DNA of 34,296 bases from IMG/VR virus record IMGVR_UViG_3300042560_001403, positions 1 through 34,296 of that record; one strand, given 5' to 3'. This DNA comes from a virus. Below the pieces are notes generated by a model. That model was not told the DNA's origin and ran no database searches. It worked only from the letters and a program-made list of their open reading frames with translations. The translations under genes and the position numbers were made by a program. Positions 1,363-6,152 of the stretch are shown piece after piece. The stretch's first letter is position 1, and each line of letters starts with the position of its first letter.

Positions 1363-2054
1363 ATGCGACTCGGCACTCCCACCCAGCTTTTTGCTTGGAA
1401 CCACAGGTTCCTTACGTGTTGCGGGCGGCACCCCATTCTCGCTGCGATGCTTTCGAACGTCCATTGGTTGCCGATGCTCCCATCGTCGTTGATGCCCATC
1501 ACCATCGTGTAGACATATGCGTGTGCATGCGTCCATTTGAAGCCTTCGCAGAACGTTCCGTGGGGTACATGAATAGCGGCGTTGATGGTATCGGCAACGA
1601 ACTGCCACAACGCTTCTGATAGGTCTGCGCTAACACGCCGCGCGATGCTGGCTTCGACCGTTGGTGCGACGTAGTTCTCAAACGCGCGCAGCTGCTTCGA
1701 TTCAACGCGTCCCTGACTGGGGAGTAGTTTGAGTGCACCGTCACGGGTACCTTCCTTACCGGATGCGAGCTGGCGCGCAAAGTAGTCGTCAAGTTCAGCG
1801 ATTGGCAGCTGTACGAATCGTTCTGCCTTTTTGATGCGGTACTGATTCCACCCTGAGCTTTGTAATACCTCAACCGCGCTTGCGGCTTCTTGCTCGTCTT
1901 GAGTGTTCACGTATTGGTCTGCGATCTGGCGTTCTGCCAGGACCCTCAGCCGCGCGTTTGCGTTCTGCTGTAACAGGTTATCGTCGGCGATTCGGATGAG
2001 CTCTTCGAGCGTGCAGTGGCCATTGATGATGCGTTCTACTTGGGCAGGGTCCAT
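1317..2054 (-). CDS. HTH-containing protein, possible late regulator
   Basis: A 245-residue protein with no family I can name. The ATG at 2054 is preceded by GGAGG with six-base spacing, which decides the start. The C-terminal third contains a helix-turn-helix-like stretch, 'WTFESIAARMGC' followed by 'PQHVRNLWFQAK', resembling sigma-region-4 or RinA-type recognition helices. The centre is rich in charged helices. It lies in the operon that leads into HNH and, across the window ends, the terminase. Many temperate phages of Gram-positive hosts place a late transcription activator there. That role is inference from position and one motif; it could also be a DNA-binding accessory protein of another kind. 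Confidence 0.6.
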   Translation of the reverse strand: MDPAQVERIINGHCTLEELIRIADDNLLQQNANARLRVLAERQIADQYVNTQDEQEAASAVEVLQSSGWNQYRIKKAERFVQLPIAELDDYFARQLASGKEGTRDGALKLLPSQGRVESKQLRAFENYVAPTVEASIARRVSADLSEALWQFVADTINAAIHVPHGTFCEGFKWTHAHAYVYTMVMGINDDGSIGNQWTFESIAARMGCRPQHVRNLWFQAKSWVGVPSRMCTDSLKAFMLLARQ

Positions 2055-2350
2055 AGGAGTCCTCCGGCGAGTAGCAGGGTGAGCAGGGTAGTGGTGTTTC
2101 GTTTGACCCAAGATGCGCGTACTTGTTCTGAAACATCACATTGATCGGCTGCAACCAGGCGCGCTTCTTGCGCGGCCTTCAAGCGTTTGTAATCACCGAC
2201 GATGCCTGCTGCGTCACTGATTTCGACAACACCATCAATGATCAGAACGCTGTTGTGCCGAGCGTTGTCGGCGCGCCACTGTTCCATCTCGGAAATCATT
2301 ACCGCGCAGCGTGCGAGCTCTGTGCATGTCAACGCTTGATCAGTCCTCAT
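2036..2350 (-). CDS. Small protein with C-terminal membrane segment
   Basis: A 104-residue protein. The first about 80 residues are soluble and helical with an acidic and Ala-rich middle. The last about 17 residues (TTLLTLLLAGGLLWTLP) form a single hydrophobic segment followed by one Lys, so it looks like a tail-anchored membrane protein. The ATG at 2350 overlaps the end of the preceding gene by 11 bases. Its own end overlaps the next start at 2054. No family was recognised. A role in lysis (a spanin- or holin-like partner) or superinfection control is possible but unsupported beyond the topology. Confidence 0.6.
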   Translation of the reverse strand: MRTDQALTCTELARCAVMISEMEQWRADNARHNSVLIIDGVVEISDAAGIVGDYKRLKAAQEARLVAADQCDVSEQVRASWVKRNTTTLLTLLLAGGLLWTLPK

Positions 2351-2555
2351 ATTCGTGACCCAACGCTTTTGCCACCCACTCTGCAGCGATGATGGTAGCG
2401 TGGTCCTCGCTGATGCGCTCTCCGTTGTCTGGAATGCGCAATTCGTGCCATACCGCGCGGATGAGTTCAGCTTGTTGCCGAACGATTCGCAGGTCTTGCT
2501 CGTGGTTAAGCATGTCGGCGATTTGGTCATCGGTGAGGAACCCGTCGTCAGACAT
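2340..2555 (-). CDS. Hypothetical acidic small protein
   Basis: A 71-residue acidic helical protein starting MSDDGFLTDDQ. The ATG at 2555 has GAGG five bases upstream and overlaps the stop of the preceding gene. A GTG at 2561 is the alternative start. No domain was recognised. It sits in a chain of short overlapping accessory genes between the RlpA-like gene and the HNH gene. Confidence 0.6.
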   Translation of the reverse strand: MSDDGFLTDDQIADMLNHEQDLRIVRQQAELIRAVWHELRIPDNGERISEDHATIIAAEWVAKALGHEYED

Positions 2556-2829
2556 GCTCACCTCGCGCTGCTAGTTCTGCCTCGTACACAATGCGATCTG
2601 CTTCTTCCTGAAGTGCCTCGAACCGCAAACGGGGTGTGGGGATATGAAAGAGCTTGTCGCCATACGTTCTCGCGCCTTCGGCAAATCGGACACCAGCAAG
2701 AAACAGGGCGGCGTCGGCTGGTGTGAAGGTACCGATGATGCGTGCGAGCTGTTCGGCGAATGGCATCCCTGCCGTTTCGCGGATCGATGCTGGGCAGTTG
2801 CATTCGGGTGGGGTGCAGGTGTCGCACAC
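2548..2829 (-). CDS. Hypothetical protein with Cys-rich N-terminus
   Basis: A 93-residue protein read from a GTG at 2829. The GTG overlaps the previous stop (TAGTG) and has AAGGAG upstream at good spacing. The N-terminus carries four Cys in about a dozen residues (CDTCTPPECNC), which could bind metal. The rest is helical ('FAEQLARIIGTFTPADAALFLAGVRFAEGA'-like, split here for length). The ORF is open for another 54 codons upstream, but that part is the antisense-frame shadow of the preceding zinc-ribbon gene. No family recognised. Confidence 0.6.
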   Translation of the reverse strand: MCDTCTPPECNCPASIRETAGMPFAEQLARIIGTFTPADAALFLAGVRFAEGARTYGDKLFHIPTPRLRFEALQEEADRIVYEAELAARGEHV

Positions 2830-3008
2830 TACGTCGGCTCCTTCTCGGTGTGTGCTCCGAGCCAGTCTGCGAGTTCCATAAGGCACGCTGGGCACAGTTC
2901 CACGCTTCGTTCCTGTACAGGAATGGTGGTGGTCTTTGTCGTAACTCTCAGCGCGGGGATGCCTTCGTCGAAGGATGCGCACCGGTCGCACTGGTAGGCG
3001 CTACCCAT
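2829..3008 (-). CDS. Small zinc-ribbon-like protein
   Basis: A 59-residue ORF below the usual length cut-off. It begins MGSAYQCDRC and has a second Cys pair, CPAC, about 30 residues later, giving a CxxC-N29-CxxC zinc-ribbon arrangement. The rest is soluble. The ATG at 3008 overlaps the stop of the preceding gene by eight bases (ATGGGTAG). Its TAG overlaps the GTG of the next gene. This double overlap and the Cys spacing are the evidence that it is real. Such one-domain zinc ribbons are common in phages and usually have no known function. Confidence 0.65.
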   Translation of the reverse strand: MGSAYQCDRCASFDEGIPALRVTTKTTTIPVQERSVELCPACLMELADWLGAHTEKEPT

Positions 3009-3213
3009 CGGCGAGCTCGCGTCGGCGGATGGTGTATGCGATCTCCCGGCGCTGCTGCGCTATCCATCCGGCTACGTCTTTTCCGATCACTTGCTCGTAT
3101 CCGTCCGTTTCCCGCTTCCAGATGCGTGGTGTGTCTGGGTGTAGCACTGGTGGTTGTAGCCACGGTGGAACAATGCCACCGTTGTGTGGTGGTTGTATTT
3201 GGCGGATATTCAT
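3001..3213 (-). CDS. Hypothetical protein
   Basis: A 70-residue protein starting MNIRQIQPPHNGG. The N-terminal half is Pro-rich, with repeated PP pairs. The C-terminal half is a charged helix ('IAQQRREIAYTIRRRELADG'). The start ATGA overlaps the stop of the RlpA-like gene and the end overlaps the zinc-ribbon gene, so translation is probably coupled. No family recognised. Confidence 0.6.
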   Translation of the reverse strand: MNIRQIQPPHNGGIVPPWLQPPVLHPDTPRIWKRETDGYEQVIGKDVAGWIAQQRREIAYTIRRRELADG

Positions 3214-3575
3214 TTCCAGCCCTTTCGGATTTGGATATTGATCGTGCCGTAGAAACCAATGCGCTTGCGCAGGCCGGGTGCTGCGTCAAGGGTGAGTGGG
3301 TGCTGGTGGAATGCGCCGCGGTCGTACACTTTGACGTGATACTTCTTGCCACGCGCCCAAATGGTGAGCCGCATCCCGCAGCGTGCATATCGTGGAGTGA
3401 GCGCGGCCACCCACAAACTGCGCTCGGTCAGGGTTTTACCGCACGCAGTTCGATTCCCGTAGAAACCGGGCCCGTACCACGTCATCGACGCAGCATGAGC
3501 TGGCATGGCCCAAAGCATGCTAAATGCCAGCACAAGCGTCCCGACAGTTACAGCGTTAAGGCGCGAAATCCGCAT
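3210..3575 (-). CDS. Secreted RlpA-like double-psi beta-barrel protein
   Basis: A 121-residue protein. Residues 1-28 form a typical signal peptide: MRISR, a hydrophobic core, and a likely cut after AHA. The mature part resembles the RlpA-like double-psi beta-barrel: 'MTWYGPGFYGNRTACGKTL' at the start, 'PRYARCGMRLTI' in the middle, then 'VYDRGAF' and 'LTLDAAPGLRKRIGF', matching the DRG and D-x-(S/A) elements that shape the active cleft. Two Cys could form a disulfide. RlpA proteins act on peptidoglycan. The start at 3575 is chosen for the signal peptide; ATGs upstream in frame would add 5 or 13 residues. It is the first gene left of attP, so cell-wall conversion of the lysogen or help in lysis are both possible. 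Confidence 0.72.
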   Translation of the reverse strand: MRISRLNAVTVGTLVLAFSMLWAMPAHAASMTWYGPGFYGNRTACGKTLTERSLWVAALTPRYARCGMRLTIWARGKKYHVKVYDRGAFHQHPLTLDAAPGLRKRIGFYGTINIQIRKGWK

Positions 3576-3614
3576 CACGATTCCACCCATTTTTGCATTT
3601 CGGTGAACAAGCAA

Positions 3615-3624
3615 AGGGTGAATA
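3615..3624 (+). repeat. Candidate integrase arm site, copy 1
   Basis: AGGGTGAATA, 64 bases from the tRNA fragment on its left side. The same ten bases occur in the same orientation at 3863-3872 and 3875-3884 on the other side. Tyrosine integrases bind such arm-type direct repeats through their N-terminal domain. Confidence 0.55.
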
Positions 3625-3687
3625 TGGGGGTGAGTTTCGCAGTTCGCGCGAACGCTGGAAATCGCCGAATCGACGCTCCAATGCGGA

Positions 3688-3734
3688 TGCCCCCGGGACG
3701 ATTCGAACGTCCGACCTGCGGATTAGAAGTCCGT
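3688..3734 (-). other. attP: tRNA-Arg(UCU) 3' fragment, attP core
   Basis: On the - strand this segment reads as the 3' part of a tRNA. It has an anticodon loop CTTCTAA (anticodon TCT), stem CGGA/TCCG, variable loop, T-arm GGACG-TTCGAAT-CGTCC, 3' acceptor strand CGGGGGC and discriminator A, with no encoded CCA. The 5' half is missing: upstream there is no D-arm of normal form and no GCCCCCG partner strand. A truncated tRNA 3' end beside an integrase gene is the classic attP that restores a host tRNA gene on integration. The target is therefore predicted to be the host tRNA-Arg(UCU) gene. Confidence 0.82.
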
Positions 3735-3862
3735 GCACAGCTCATACCAGTAATGATATTCGCCGCGCAGGACGCATCTCCTTCCCCTGCAAATCAACAA
3801 TTTTTGAAAGTCACTGCTGGTTGGTTTCGCGCAACGAGATCTGTGGTGTACTTCGCAAACTG

Positions 3863-3884
3863 AGGGTGAATAATAGGGTGAATA
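3863..3884 (+). repeat. Candidate integrase arm sites, copies 2 and 3
   Basis: Two copies of AGGGTGAATA at 3863-3872 and 3875-3884, with starts 12 bases apart, so they sit on nearly the same helical face. They lie just beyond the integrase stop codon. With the copy at 3615 they bracket the tRNA fragment, as arm sites do in attP. Confidence 0.6.
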
Positions 3885-3894
3885 ACCCAAGCCG

Positions 3895-4935
3895 CTAATC
3901 AAGCATTTGAGCAAGCAGCTCATCGGCCTTGCTGATGAATGATGGTCGCTTGCTATCAAGCAGGCCACCGTATCGGCTGATAGTCGTTTGCACGCTGCTG
4001 TGACCCATGCGCAAACACAGCTCACCCACGTTCACGTCGCCGGTGGCGATCAGTAGGCTGGCATACGTGTCACGCAGGTTGTGCATCTGTAGGCCGGGTA
4101 GCGCCCTGCGTGCTTCTTGGTCCAGCACCGTTCGTCGCCACGACGCCCCCAGCGGTCCTCCGGCACGGTTTGGAAACACGAGGGGAACATCGGGAGCGTG
4201 CTCGCGCCATTCTTCAAGTGCTTTCACAGCTGGCAGAAGGATCACTGCCGGTCGCTGCTTTCCGCTTTTTGGGTCTTTTAGGTGCCCGCGCCGATCGCTG
4301 GCCTGTGCTCTGCGAACATGAACCACCCGATTTGCGAGGTCGATGTCGTCCCACTGAACAGCTCGAAGCTCGCTCCACCTGAGCCCGGTGTAAGCAGCGA
4401 ACTGGAAAAGCGTTGCATCACGCATCCTGCTGCATGCGGCTGCCACTGCTTGCACTTGTTTAGGTGTTAGCGGCCGTGGTGGCTGTGGCGCGTTCTGAGC
4501 GAGGCTGCGTACATCGTCCAGCACTCGAGTTGTGCACAGGCCTTTGGAGCGCCCCCACCGCATCATTGCGCGTAGTGTTCGCAGTGTGCTGTTCGCAGTC
4601 GCCGGGCTTGTTGTGTCCGCTACCTTGTCCAGCCAACTGCTGATCTGCGCCACGGTTAGATCATCGGCGCGTACTCCGCCGAGCTCCGGCAGGATGTACA
4701 TTGCCAGTTTGGCTTTGTAGCCCCTGATCGTGTTGTGTGCGAGTGTGGGCAGGTGTTCGACTTCCCAGCGGGTTGCAATGTGCTCGACGCTGGTGCGTTG
4801 CGGATTGTCTCCTGCTTGGACACGTCGTAGGAATGCTTGCGCGTCCTTGTATTTTGCGAACACGCGCTCACGCTTGCCGTACCGCACGCGGTAATACGGG
4901 GTTCCTTTTTTTGTGATGCGGTGCATGTGCGCCAT
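3895..4935 (-). CDS. int: Tyrosine site-specific integrase
   Basis: A 346-residue tyrosine recombinase, full length for phage integrases. Residues about 1-45 are a basic arm-binding domain (MAHMHRITKKGTPYYRVRYG). A SAM-like core-binding domain follows ('TLAHNTIRGYKAKLAMYI'). The catalytic domain has the first Arg in 'TGLRWSELRAVQW', the second box 'HNLRDTYASL', 'MGHSS' and the nucleophile Tyr in 'ISRYGGLL'. The second box has Asp where HxLRHT has His, a tolerated but notable change. The gene ends 11 bases from the candidate arm sites and is followed by attP. It lies at the end of the early operon, directly after the Gly-rich micro-ORFs. Confidence 0.95.
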   Translation of the reverse strand: MAHMHRITKKGTPYYRVRYGKRERVFAKYKDAQAFLRRVQAGDNPQRTSVEHIATRWEVEHLPTLAHNTIRGYKAKLAMYILPELGGVRADDLTVAQISSWLDKVADTTSPATANSTLRTLRAMMRWGRSKGLCTTRVLDDVRSLAQNAPQPPRPLTPKQVQAVAAACSRMRDATLFQFAAYTGLRWSELRAVQWDDIDLANRVVHVRRAQASDRRGHLKDPKSGKQRPAVILLPAVKALEEWREHAPDVPLVFPNRAGGPLGASWRRTVLDQEARRALPGLQMHNLRDTYASLLIATGDVNVGELCLRMGHSSVQTTISRYGGLLDSKRPSFISKADELLAQMLD

Positions 4936-4944
4936 GCGCGTAGT

Positions 4945-4992
4945 TTACGTGGTGATCGCCGGACAGCCATTGCCGCCGATGCCGTTACTCAT
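4945..4992 (-). CDS. Gly-rich micro-ORF E (last of tandem array)
   Basis: A possible 15-residue peptide, MSNGIGGNGCPAITT. It starts at the ATG in GATGAGTAACGGC, the same junction that separates the other array members; its first bases include the TAA stop of ORF D. It ends ten bases before the integrase ATG. It could be a translated leader that couples integrase translation to the array. It is very short, and translation is unproven. Confidence 0.35.
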   Translation of the reverse strand: MSNGIGGNGCPAITT

Positions 4993-5209
4993 CGTCGTCT
5001 CCGTTGCCGTAGCCGTTGCCGTCGCCGTTGCCGTAGCTGTAGCCGTAGCCGTTGCCGATGCCGTTGCCGTTGCCGTTGCCGATGCCGTTGCCGTAGACGT
5101 TGCCGTGGCCGTAGACGTTGCCGTAGCCGTTGCCGTTGCCGTAGCCGTCGCCGATGCCGTAGCCGTACCAGTAGCCATACCCGTCGCCGTAGCCGTCGCC
5201 GCTACTCAT
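4985..5209 (-). CDS. Gly-rich micro-ORF D
   Basis: A 74-residue peptide beginning MSSGDGYGDGYGY and ending GDDDE. Nearly every second residue is Gly; the alternate positions are mostly Tyr, Asn or Asp, with some Ile and Val. At DNA level it is a degenerate hexamer, GGC followed by NAC. There is no signal peptide or fold signature, and it should be disordered or sticky. The start lies inside ATGAGTAG, whose TAG ends ORF C, and its own TAA lies inside the start of ORF E. Similar Gly-rich ORFs occur beside small conserved genes in other phages (recalled, not searched). Confidence 0.55.
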   Translation of the reverse strand: MSSGDGYGDGYGYWYGYGIGDGYGNGNGYGNVYGHGNVYGNGIGNGNGNGIGNGYGYSYGNGDGNGYGNGDDDE

Positions 5210-5261
5210 CGTTGTATCCGTTGCCGTTGCCGTAGCCGTCGCCTTTGTTGCCGCTACTCAT
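5202..5261 (-). CDS. Gly-rich micro-ORF C
   Basis: A 19-residue ORF, MSSGNKGDGYGNGNGYNDE. It has the same MSSG start and D-E-stop end as its neighbours, bounded on both sides by ATGAGTAG overlaps. The extreme shortness with intact boundaries suggests that the unit start...junction is the thing being kept. Translation is unproven. Confidence 0.4.
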   Translation of the reverse strand: MSSGNKGDGYGNGNGYNDE

Positions 5262-5406
5262 CGTAGTCTCCGTCACCGTAGCGATCGTATCCGTATCCGT
5301 TGCCGTCGCCGTAGCCGATGCCGTAGCCGCCGTAGCCGCCGCCGTAGCCGTCGCCGTATCCGTATCCGTTGCCGTCTTCGCTTCCGATACCGTAGCCGCT
5401 ACTCAT
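5254..5406 (-). CDS. Gly-rich micro-ORF B
   Basis: A 50-residue peptide beginning MSSGYGIGSEDG and ending GDYDE. It is rich in Gly-Tyr and Gly-Asp pairs built on the same hexamer. In the same frame the ORF extends upstream as an Ala-Thr repeat, because the hexamer is open in that frame too, but the conserved MSSG junction marks the likely start. It overlaps ORF A by eight bases. Confidence 0.5.
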   Translation of the reverse strand: MSSGYGIGSEDGNGYGYGDGYGGGYGGYGIGYGDGNGYGYDRYGDGDYDE

Positions 5407-5575
5407 CGTCCTTTCCGCCTCCGTCGTCGTAGACGTAGCCGTTGCCGTAGCCGTTGCCGTAGCCGTCGCCGTCGCCATAGCCGCCGTAGCCTCCGTCTCC
5501 GTTGCTGTAGCCGCCGCCGCCGTAGCCTCCGTCTCCGTAGCCGTAGCCGTCGCCGATGCGGTCGCCGCTACTCAC
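5399..5575 (-). CDS. Gly-rich micro-ORF A (first of array)
   Basis: A 58-residue peptide, starting MSSGDRIGDGYGYGDG from a GTG and ending KDDE. The GTG overlaps the TGA of the preceding 98-residue gene (GTGA), so the array is translationally linked to that gene. The composition is Gly with Tyr, Asp and Asn, as in ORFs B-D. Start context TGTGAGTAGCGGC matches the internal junctions except for the initiating base. Confidence 0.5.
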   Translation of the reverse strand: MSSGDRIGDGYGYGDGGYGGGGYSNGDGGYGGYGDGDGYGNGYGNGYVYDDGGGKDDE

Positions 5576-5868
5576 AGATCCACACCATCAACGACATCAA
5601 TCACAGCAATCACATTCTGTTCGCAAACAGTCATACTGCCGAAGAAGTCAAGCACCGTCTTATCCGTCTTACCCTCAAGCGCGAGCTGTCCGAGGCCTTT
5701 TGTTGTACCCCAGCGGCGGATCACACTCGCATTGGTGTAGTTCACGCCGTCGCCGGTGTCACTTCCGACGAATACCCATCCATTAGTACAGATAACGATC
5801 TTGCGGTCGCCTGTAGCTGCTCCGACTGGTGTGTATTCCATGCCGTTGATAGTGATGTTTTCGCTCAT
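5572..5868 (-). CDS. Conserved-looking small protein upstream of Gly-rich array
   Basis: A 98-residue soluble protein with an excellent AAGGAG site before the ATG at 5868. The pattern 'GWVFVGSDTG', 'NASVIRRWGTTKGLGQLALEG' (split here) and a C-terminal hydrophobic strand 'VIAVIDVVD' matches, from memory, a widespread small phage and plasmid protein whose gene is often followed by a Gly-rich repeat ORF. The function is unknown. It is beta-rich with no catalytic motif I recognise. Its stop overlaps the first micro-ORF start (GTGA), so the two are probably co-translated. Confidence 0.65.
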   Translation of the reverse strand: MSENITINGMEYTPVGAATGDRKIVICTNGWVFVGSDTGDGVNYTNASVIRRWGTTKGLGQLALEGKTDKTVLDFFGSMTVCEQNVIAVIDVVDGVDL

Positions 5869-5900: not shown

Positions 5901-6152
5901 TTACGCGCCGCGCCTCGGAAATGGCACTAGCTCTCCAGGCACCGCATAAACCGGATTCGGCACATCAACGTTATGACACTCAACCGCGCGCCTACTCGCC
6001 CACGCTTTGATCGCTTCGACATCCTGCGGACTGAAACGAATAGTCCGCCCCAAACGATGATGCGGAATCTTCCGCTCCCGACACCAATGCTGAATAGTGC
6101 GCGAACTCATACCAAGCTCGTTCGCAAGATCATTGCAACTCAACCACTTCAT
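5901..6152 (-). CDS. xis: Excisionase-like HTH protein
   Basis: An 83-residue protein. The first 50 residues are a MerR/excisionase-type winged helix: 'LSCNDLANELGMSSRTIQHWCRERKIPHHRLGRTIRFSPQDV' (given in outline), with the helix-turn-helix at about residues 5-28 and the wing 'LGRTIRFSP'. This is the helix-turn-helix 17 architecture of phage and plasmid excisionases. The tail is Pro- and Val-rich. It lies upstream of integrase in the same operon, which fits a directionality factor; a plain transcription regulator is the alternative. Its start overlaps the preceding stop (ATGA). Confidence 0.7.
   Translation of the reverse strand: MKWLSCNDLANELGMSSRTIQHWCRERKIPHHRLGRTIRFSPQDVEAIKAWASRRAVECHNVDVPNPVYAVPGELVPFPRRGA

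Follow-up and report, generated by a model that had tools for sequence, protein, structure and literature searches.

Tandem Gly-X open reading frames joined by repeated stop-start overlaps in a phage-like genome, and their relatives

Five short open reading frames (ORFs) follow one another on the - strand of the window, by which the whole stretch of 34,296 nucleotides from an IMG/VR virus record is meant, and at each boundary the stop of one ORF and the start of the next occupy the same eight bases. How did the same start come to stand at every break, and are peptides made from such a chain? A preliminary description, based on the letters alone, proposed a modular unit rather than frame decay of one gene. 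It is fairly probable that the ORFs are tandem copies of one (Gly-X)n gene, termed GX below, that they arose by duplication and hexamer slippage, and that each peptide is made by termination-reinitiation.

Layout of the array and its junctions

The first member, ORF1 (5399–5575, - strand), has 58 codons, begins with a GTG start, reads VSSG...KDDE and ends in TAG. It is followed on the same strand by ORF2 (5254–5406, 50 codons, MSSG...DYDE, TAG stop), ORF3 (5202–5261, 19 codons, MSSGNKGDGYGNGNGYNDE, MSSG...NDE, TAG stop) and ORF4 (4985–5209, 74 codons, MSSG...DDDE, TAA stop). The last, ORF5 (4945–4992, - strand, 15 codons, MSNGIGGNGCPAITT, TAA stop), is a short terminal module in which the Gly-X pattern does not reach the end, and it is possibly a remnant. 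The positions and codon numbers of all five ORFs are as first described, and so is the D-E that precedes the stop in the first four (KDDE, DYDE, NDE and DDDE). The common MSSG or MSNG start holds for ORF2 to ORF4, which begin MSSG, but ORF1 begins VSSG from GTG and not from ATG.

The eight shared bases, which also agree with the preliminary description, are ATGAGTAG at three junctions and ATGAGTAA at the fourth, all on the - strand. Junction 1 (5399–5406) joins the ORF1 stop to the ORF2 start and has strong upstream anti-SD pairing (-10.3 kcal/mol). Junction 2 (5254–5261, ORF2 stop and ORF3 start) and junction 4 (4985–4992, ORF4 stop and ORF5 start) have moderate pairing (-7.4 and -7.1 kcal/mol), and junction 3 (5202–5209, ORF3 stop and ORF4 start) has weak pairing (-3.3 kcal/mol). 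At three of the four junctions the SD-like pairing exceeds that of about 86–98% of array positions. The GTG of ORF1 in turn overlaps the TGA stop of the preceding gene, here called the W gene, by 4 nt (GTGA, 5575–5572; GTGAGTAGCGGC), and this overlap shares the TGAGTAGCGGC context with the internal junctions. The chain therefore comprises six members, the W gene and ORF1 to ORF5, and an integrase gene comes after it.

The repetition of the junction context is nearly exact, as had been claimed. The 13-mer GATGAGTAGCGGC occurs in the array three times without mismatch, once with one mismatch and once with two, each time at an ORF start. When up to two mismatches are allowed, the whole window contains 8 matches, five of them at the array starts, compared to 0.87 expected and a maximum of 4 in 100 dinucleotide shuffles. 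A 6-mer shuffle is uninformative as a control for the junction because it retains the junction hexamers.

The start-to-start distances in the array are 169, 145, 52 and 217 nt, each equal to 1 modulo 3. This means that every junction brings a one-base frame step and that the Gly-X frame is regained from each start; all four GX modules keep this frame throughout. The array has strong repeats with a 6-nt unit, and DNA built of GGCNAC hexamers is open in several frames, so that openness by itself is no proof of coding. Unlike mere openness, a repeated junction with restoration of the frame does need an explanation.

Such an explanation could be sought in duplication alone. The W gene and ORF1 would then be all that matters, and the later ORFs would be non-functional debris that stays open since GGCNAC lacks forward-frame stops. 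The openness of the repeat in several frames fits this account, as does the stub-like ORF5, and module lengths of 1 modulo 3 would follow automatically from one duplication and slippage by 3 or 6 nt. The account is nevertheless unlikely, because three or four copies have kept stop and start joined, three of the four starts are preceded by SD-like sequence and the GX frame is kept by all four modules. Two independent chains, described below, also speak against it. The constant ends of the window modules themselves are too alike for a test of selection.

The W gene and the single GX gene of relatives

The W gene (5572–5868, - strand) encodes 98 amino acids with a WGTTKGLG motif and is a distant relative of DUF6948 with a predicted Sm/LSm-like fold. 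Relatives that encode WGTTKGLG were found in at least 168 viral stretches. The window protein gives no match to Pfam DUF6948 (PF22253) at the gathering cut-off, while 20 of the 51 aligned W-family members match DUF6948 at E ≤ 0.01 (best 5.5e-7), and for a homologue encoded ahead of a GX gene in a Dickeya phage the score is 106.9, with the cut-off at 27. Pfam assigns DUF6948 alone to the W family and no Sm/LSm family, and a profile search of PDB chains gave no Sm/LSm sequence match and one non-Sm match (E 0.072).

The fold is suggested by structure models. That of the window protein has a pLDDT of 90, and nearly all of its best PDB matches are Sm/LSm proteins, at E ≥ 0.015. For the model of a homologue (L029), the best Foldseek match is 3by7, which is described as an Sm/LSm-like protein (E 6.6e-4, TM about 0.5), and the top 50 matches are mostly Sm/LSm. 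On these models an Sm-like fold is likely. The W protein may resemble Sm/LSm/Hfq-like RNA-binding proteins in its predicted fold, but differs from them in the TM of about 0.5 and the lack of a sequence match, and ring formation and RNA binding are putative.

A GX ORF lies close by in 90 of the 93 distinct loci that have at least 700 nt downstream of the W gene. In 81 of the 93 there is exactly one such ORF, unlike the five of the window. The X residues of (Gly-X)n in these relatives are mostly Tyr, Asp, Asn and Ser. The preliminary description knew of no system like this one; that judgment did not hold for the unit itself, which forms a pair with a phage gene that is widespread.

The start of GX is commonly embedded in the end of the W gene. 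Of 86 loci, 81 allow GX to start within the W gene. The C-terminal Trp of the W family is nearly invariant, and its codon carries the A/GTGG that serves as the GX start. GX is in frame with this embedded A/GTGG in 66 of 78 loci, compared to 26 expected by chance, in a set of related sequences that are not independent. Because the GX ORF usually starts within the end of the W gene, coupling of stop and start appears to be ancestral, and GX is probably coupled translationally to the W gene in the relatives, judging from sequence. In the W family, the codons for the conserved EExKW at the C-terminus (for example L064, 5237–5264) double as the SD sequence and start codon of GX, so that conservation of the W-protein C-terminus may stem from the downstream start.

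The dominant Gly codon of GX differs among loci (GGC in 76, GGG in 6, GGT in 2 and GGA in 2), yet the Gly-X pattern persists, which indicates that the amino-acid pattern is conserved rather than the DNA hexamer. The length of the gene changes among isolates. Six Rheinheimera phages differ from one another by 0–2 of 315 nt in the W gene but by in-frame indels of 6 and 36 nt in GX; steps of this kind can account for the variable interiors of the copies in the window.

The pair is present in 115 Rheinheimera phage records and in many metagenomic phages. Among named phages, a single-copy pair is found in Eggerthella phage PMBT5 (gp37-gp38) and in Rhodobacter phage RcapNL, and in Dickeya phage Setonix the gene ahead of GX encodes a DUF6948 protein of a different subtype. 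DUF6948-type homologues occur in Pectobacterium, Vibrio and Iodobacter phages. Loci with a single GX, such as those of the Rheinheimera Barba phages, PMBT5 and RcapNL, are like the window in gene order, GX composition, hexamer slippage and an overlapping or very close start. They differ in having one ORF instead of five, mostly with an N-terminal lead of their own (e.g. EDxQxS) and a C-terminus other than that of the window ORFs.

Some records in this set carry unexpected labels. PMBT5 gp38 (L377, 3288–3614), the GX gene beside a W-family relative, is annotated as an “adsorption protein”, probably a misannotation based on composition. In Neisseria gonorrhoeae (L411, NZ_CP119140.1, about 1150–1152 kb), a GX ORF comes after a gene that reads in translation as DUF6948-like, and the two presumably belong to a prophage; this record is 2.17 Mb long and chromosome-sized, yet it is filed as a plasmid in PLSDB.

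Tandem copies, chains and the proposed mechanism

More than one GX ORF was found in 8 of 109 distinct related loci (L006, L008, L056, L064, L065, L086, L254 and L294). A second match in L075 was rejected as a tandem copy, being a long EGEG-rich protein. In L294, three GX copies share the same N-terminus and are separated by a stop-to-start spacing of exactly 9 nt.

Overlapping stop-start chains occur in two contigs besides the window. In L086, GX ORFs at 4390–4485, 4482–4736 and 4733–4972 are joined by ATGA overlaps, each junction being GGGGGGGGAATGAAATGA; the first two end in GGGMK, and the chain has the SD-like sequence GGGGGGGGA (-11.2 kcal/mol). In L383 (reverse-complement coordinates), four GX ORFs (1886–2107, 2104–2310, 2307–2525 and 2522–2752) are linked by 4-nt GTGA overlaps, and a fifth copy lies outside the chain at 3787–4107. 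The L383 copies have RYPVG after the start codon and GRR at the end, and in one copy the residue after RYPVG is Cys, where the others have Tyr or Phe. Both chains are like the window in their tandem GX ORFs with constant ends and a variable interior, and in the frame step and overlap at each junction. They differ from it in overlap length, in their termini (MSG/MNG...GGGMK in L086, MRYPVG...GRR in L383) and in surroundings: in L086 the W gene lies downstream of the array, and no W gene was seen beside the array of L383. A Cas4-like PD-(D/E)XK nuclease gene (L086, 3257–4393) ends just ahead of the first GX ORF of that chain, and the L383 array (reverse complement, 1886–4107) adjoins DNA cytosine methyltransferase-like genes.

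The constant ends of L383 vary in three of five N-terminal and two of three C-terminal codons, and all five variable codons are synonymous; the pattern comes from few codons and from L383 alone among the arrays. It suggests that the start frame of L383 is translated, and it is the best evidence, at the level of sequence, that GX starts of this kind are used. Debris would not be expected to recur as independent chains with the same layout, or to vary at synonymous sites only.

The chains also bear on two further explanations. The metagenomic window might be misassembled, since it comes from a virus record with 6-nt-unit repeats, and short-read assembly can collapse or join repeats. This is barely credible given that stop and start are intact and in the right frame at all junctions, that similar arrays occur in unrelated contigs and that the pair and its variable length are present in sequenced phage isolates. 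Alternatively, one polyprotein might be made by programmed frameshifting at every junction, as the frame shifts by one base at each junction, where a stop codon stands, and the Gly-X frame resumes behind it. This is highly improbable because the junctions offer no slippery sequence. By eye, GAT GAG TAG C permits no re-pairing of tRNA-Glu on +1 (AGT) or -2, and by inspection the L086 junction (AUG AAA UGA G) is without a slippery heptamer. Moreover, a fresh start codon stands at every junction of all three arrays, and GX has its own start in the relatives.

Duplication, slippage and reinitiation together offer the better account. The duplicated unit would have run from an overlapped start as far as the following one and would have been copied several times, taking the junction TGAGTAGCGGC along. 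Slippage and unequal recombination between GGCNAC hexamers would have produced copy-specific lengths, in multiples of 3 or 6 nt and with the frame kept. A ribosome stopping at TAG or TAA would restart at the ATG 5 nt upstream, aided in several cases by SD-like GGAGG or GGAG. The products would be the W protein, four low-complexity GX peptides of 19–74 residues and one end peptide of 15 residues. Tandem duplication of a gene with a coupled start, followed by hexamer slippage, would suffice to give identical starts, and no special system is needed for them, contrary to what had been supposed. Pure frame decay of one long ORF is rejected, since the relatives carry intact single ORFs, intact tandem copies or, in two contigs, chains; a single long Gly-rich ORF with random frameshifts was not seen among them. 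The recurrence of stop-start chains in two other contigs also favours termination-reinitiation, which had been suggested at the outset.

At all window junctions the stop and the next start lie within -8 to +10 nt, with four overlaps of 8 nt and the 4-nt overlap of W and ORF1. The commonest gene overlaps are of 4 or 1 nt, and the 8-nt junction of the window counts against the coupling model, as do the lack of a good SD sequence at the ORF4 start and the shortness of ORF5. Reinitiation is strongly distance dependent, and gene pairs at -8 to +10 nt, a class treated as near enough to be coupled by reinitiation, are enriched for subunits of complexes (PMC10666635). In 13 of 14 overlapping pairs tested, coupling was strict, with a variable need for an SD sequence (PMC6728339). 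The window resembles such pairs in stop-start distance and variable SD use; they were described for different genes, whereas the window has near-identical junctions in tandem copies (PMC6728339, PMC10666635).

The search for the junction and for MSSG-type ORFs in relatives, which the preliminary description had proposed, gave a divided result: GX relatives and the two chains were found, but the exact junction pattern GATGAGTAGCGGCNACGGCNACGG had no match in viral contigs besides the window. The looser pattern TGAGTARCGGCNNCGGC has at least 120 matches; among the matches listed, only L182 and L191 have GX ORFs, both single-copy, and the remaining ones were dismissed as chance. Viral contigs yielded no array closely related to that of the window, the window integrase has two weak loci as relatives, and a 95-nt probe modelled on the start and end sequence of L383 had no match in the phage collection. 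Plasmid matches to GX DNA (Haloterrigena, Bosea, Streptomyces) were set aside, as annotation or reading shows them to be repeat proteins of other kinds.

Coupled overlapping genes and low-complexity slippage are both already known. In the open-access literature searched, outside which most subscription journals lie, neither the W/GX pair nor GX arrays were the subject of any paper found. The stop-start GX array is apparently an undescribed arrangement, and it recurs: at least two further phage-like sequences have it, and their start and stop sequences are unrelated. The arrays show a low-complexity gene multiplied while each copy stays linked to the preceding one.

Genomic context and possible role

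The apparent operon segment begins with an excisionase-like gene of the HTH_17 type (5901–6152, - strand, 83 aa; Pfam HTH_17 1.5e-11, PHROG excisionase 1.8e-7), which has a strong SD sequence. At the other end, the ATG of the tyrosine integrase gene (3895–4935, - strand) lies 9 nt past the ORF5 stop without an SD sequence (+0.5 kcal/mol), so that translation of the integrase may be coupled to the micro-ORF chain. A gene for a DnaC-like loader lies just upstream in the window, which further carries a replication initiation gene and one that is Erf-like. In annotated phages, the neighbours of the pair are replication, recombination or regulatory genes: phage by phage, DNA polymerase and exonuclease, Erf and a RelE-type gene, SSB and a DnaC-like loader, or a repressor and a DUF2303 gene.

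The position between an excisionase-like gene and an integrase, together with the strong hexamer repeats, could mean that the repeats act as DNA or RNA (a recombination site, an origin or a regulatory RNA) and that the ORFs are incidental. This is very unlikely, because the dominant Gly codon varies among phages under a constant Gly-X pattern, GX is in frame with its own start in most loci and the pairs elsewhere are found in replication or other regions rather than beside int. In addition, no Rfam family matches the array region, and promoter and terminator matches there do not rise above the shuffled expectation.

What the coupled peptides do can be addressed tentatively. Searches of PHROGs, Pfam and PADLOC gave no assignment for the GX peptides, and a Pfam TrAA12 match to ORF4 was rejected as a composition match below the cut-off. 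With low confidence, GX may be disordered, rich in Gly, Tyr, Asp and Asn, and act as a partner of the W protein with its Sm-like predicted fold; the array would raise its dose or length variety. A more speculative proposal, and a doubtful one, is that GX arrays are a recurrent phage architecture by which the dose and the range of lengths are set for a phase-separating, low-complexity partner of the Sm-like protein, rich in Gly and Tyr, so that the phage builds an RNA-protein assembly, while in the window the chain may also throttle integrase translation. If true, the pairing of a phage Sm-like protein with a disordered Gly-X peptide coupled to it would offer an RNA-protein system open to direct test.

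The HTH gene at 5901–6152 also matches PADLOC mad1 (6.4e-11). Given the neighbouring integrase, it is more likely to be an HTH gene of the excisionase type than mad1.
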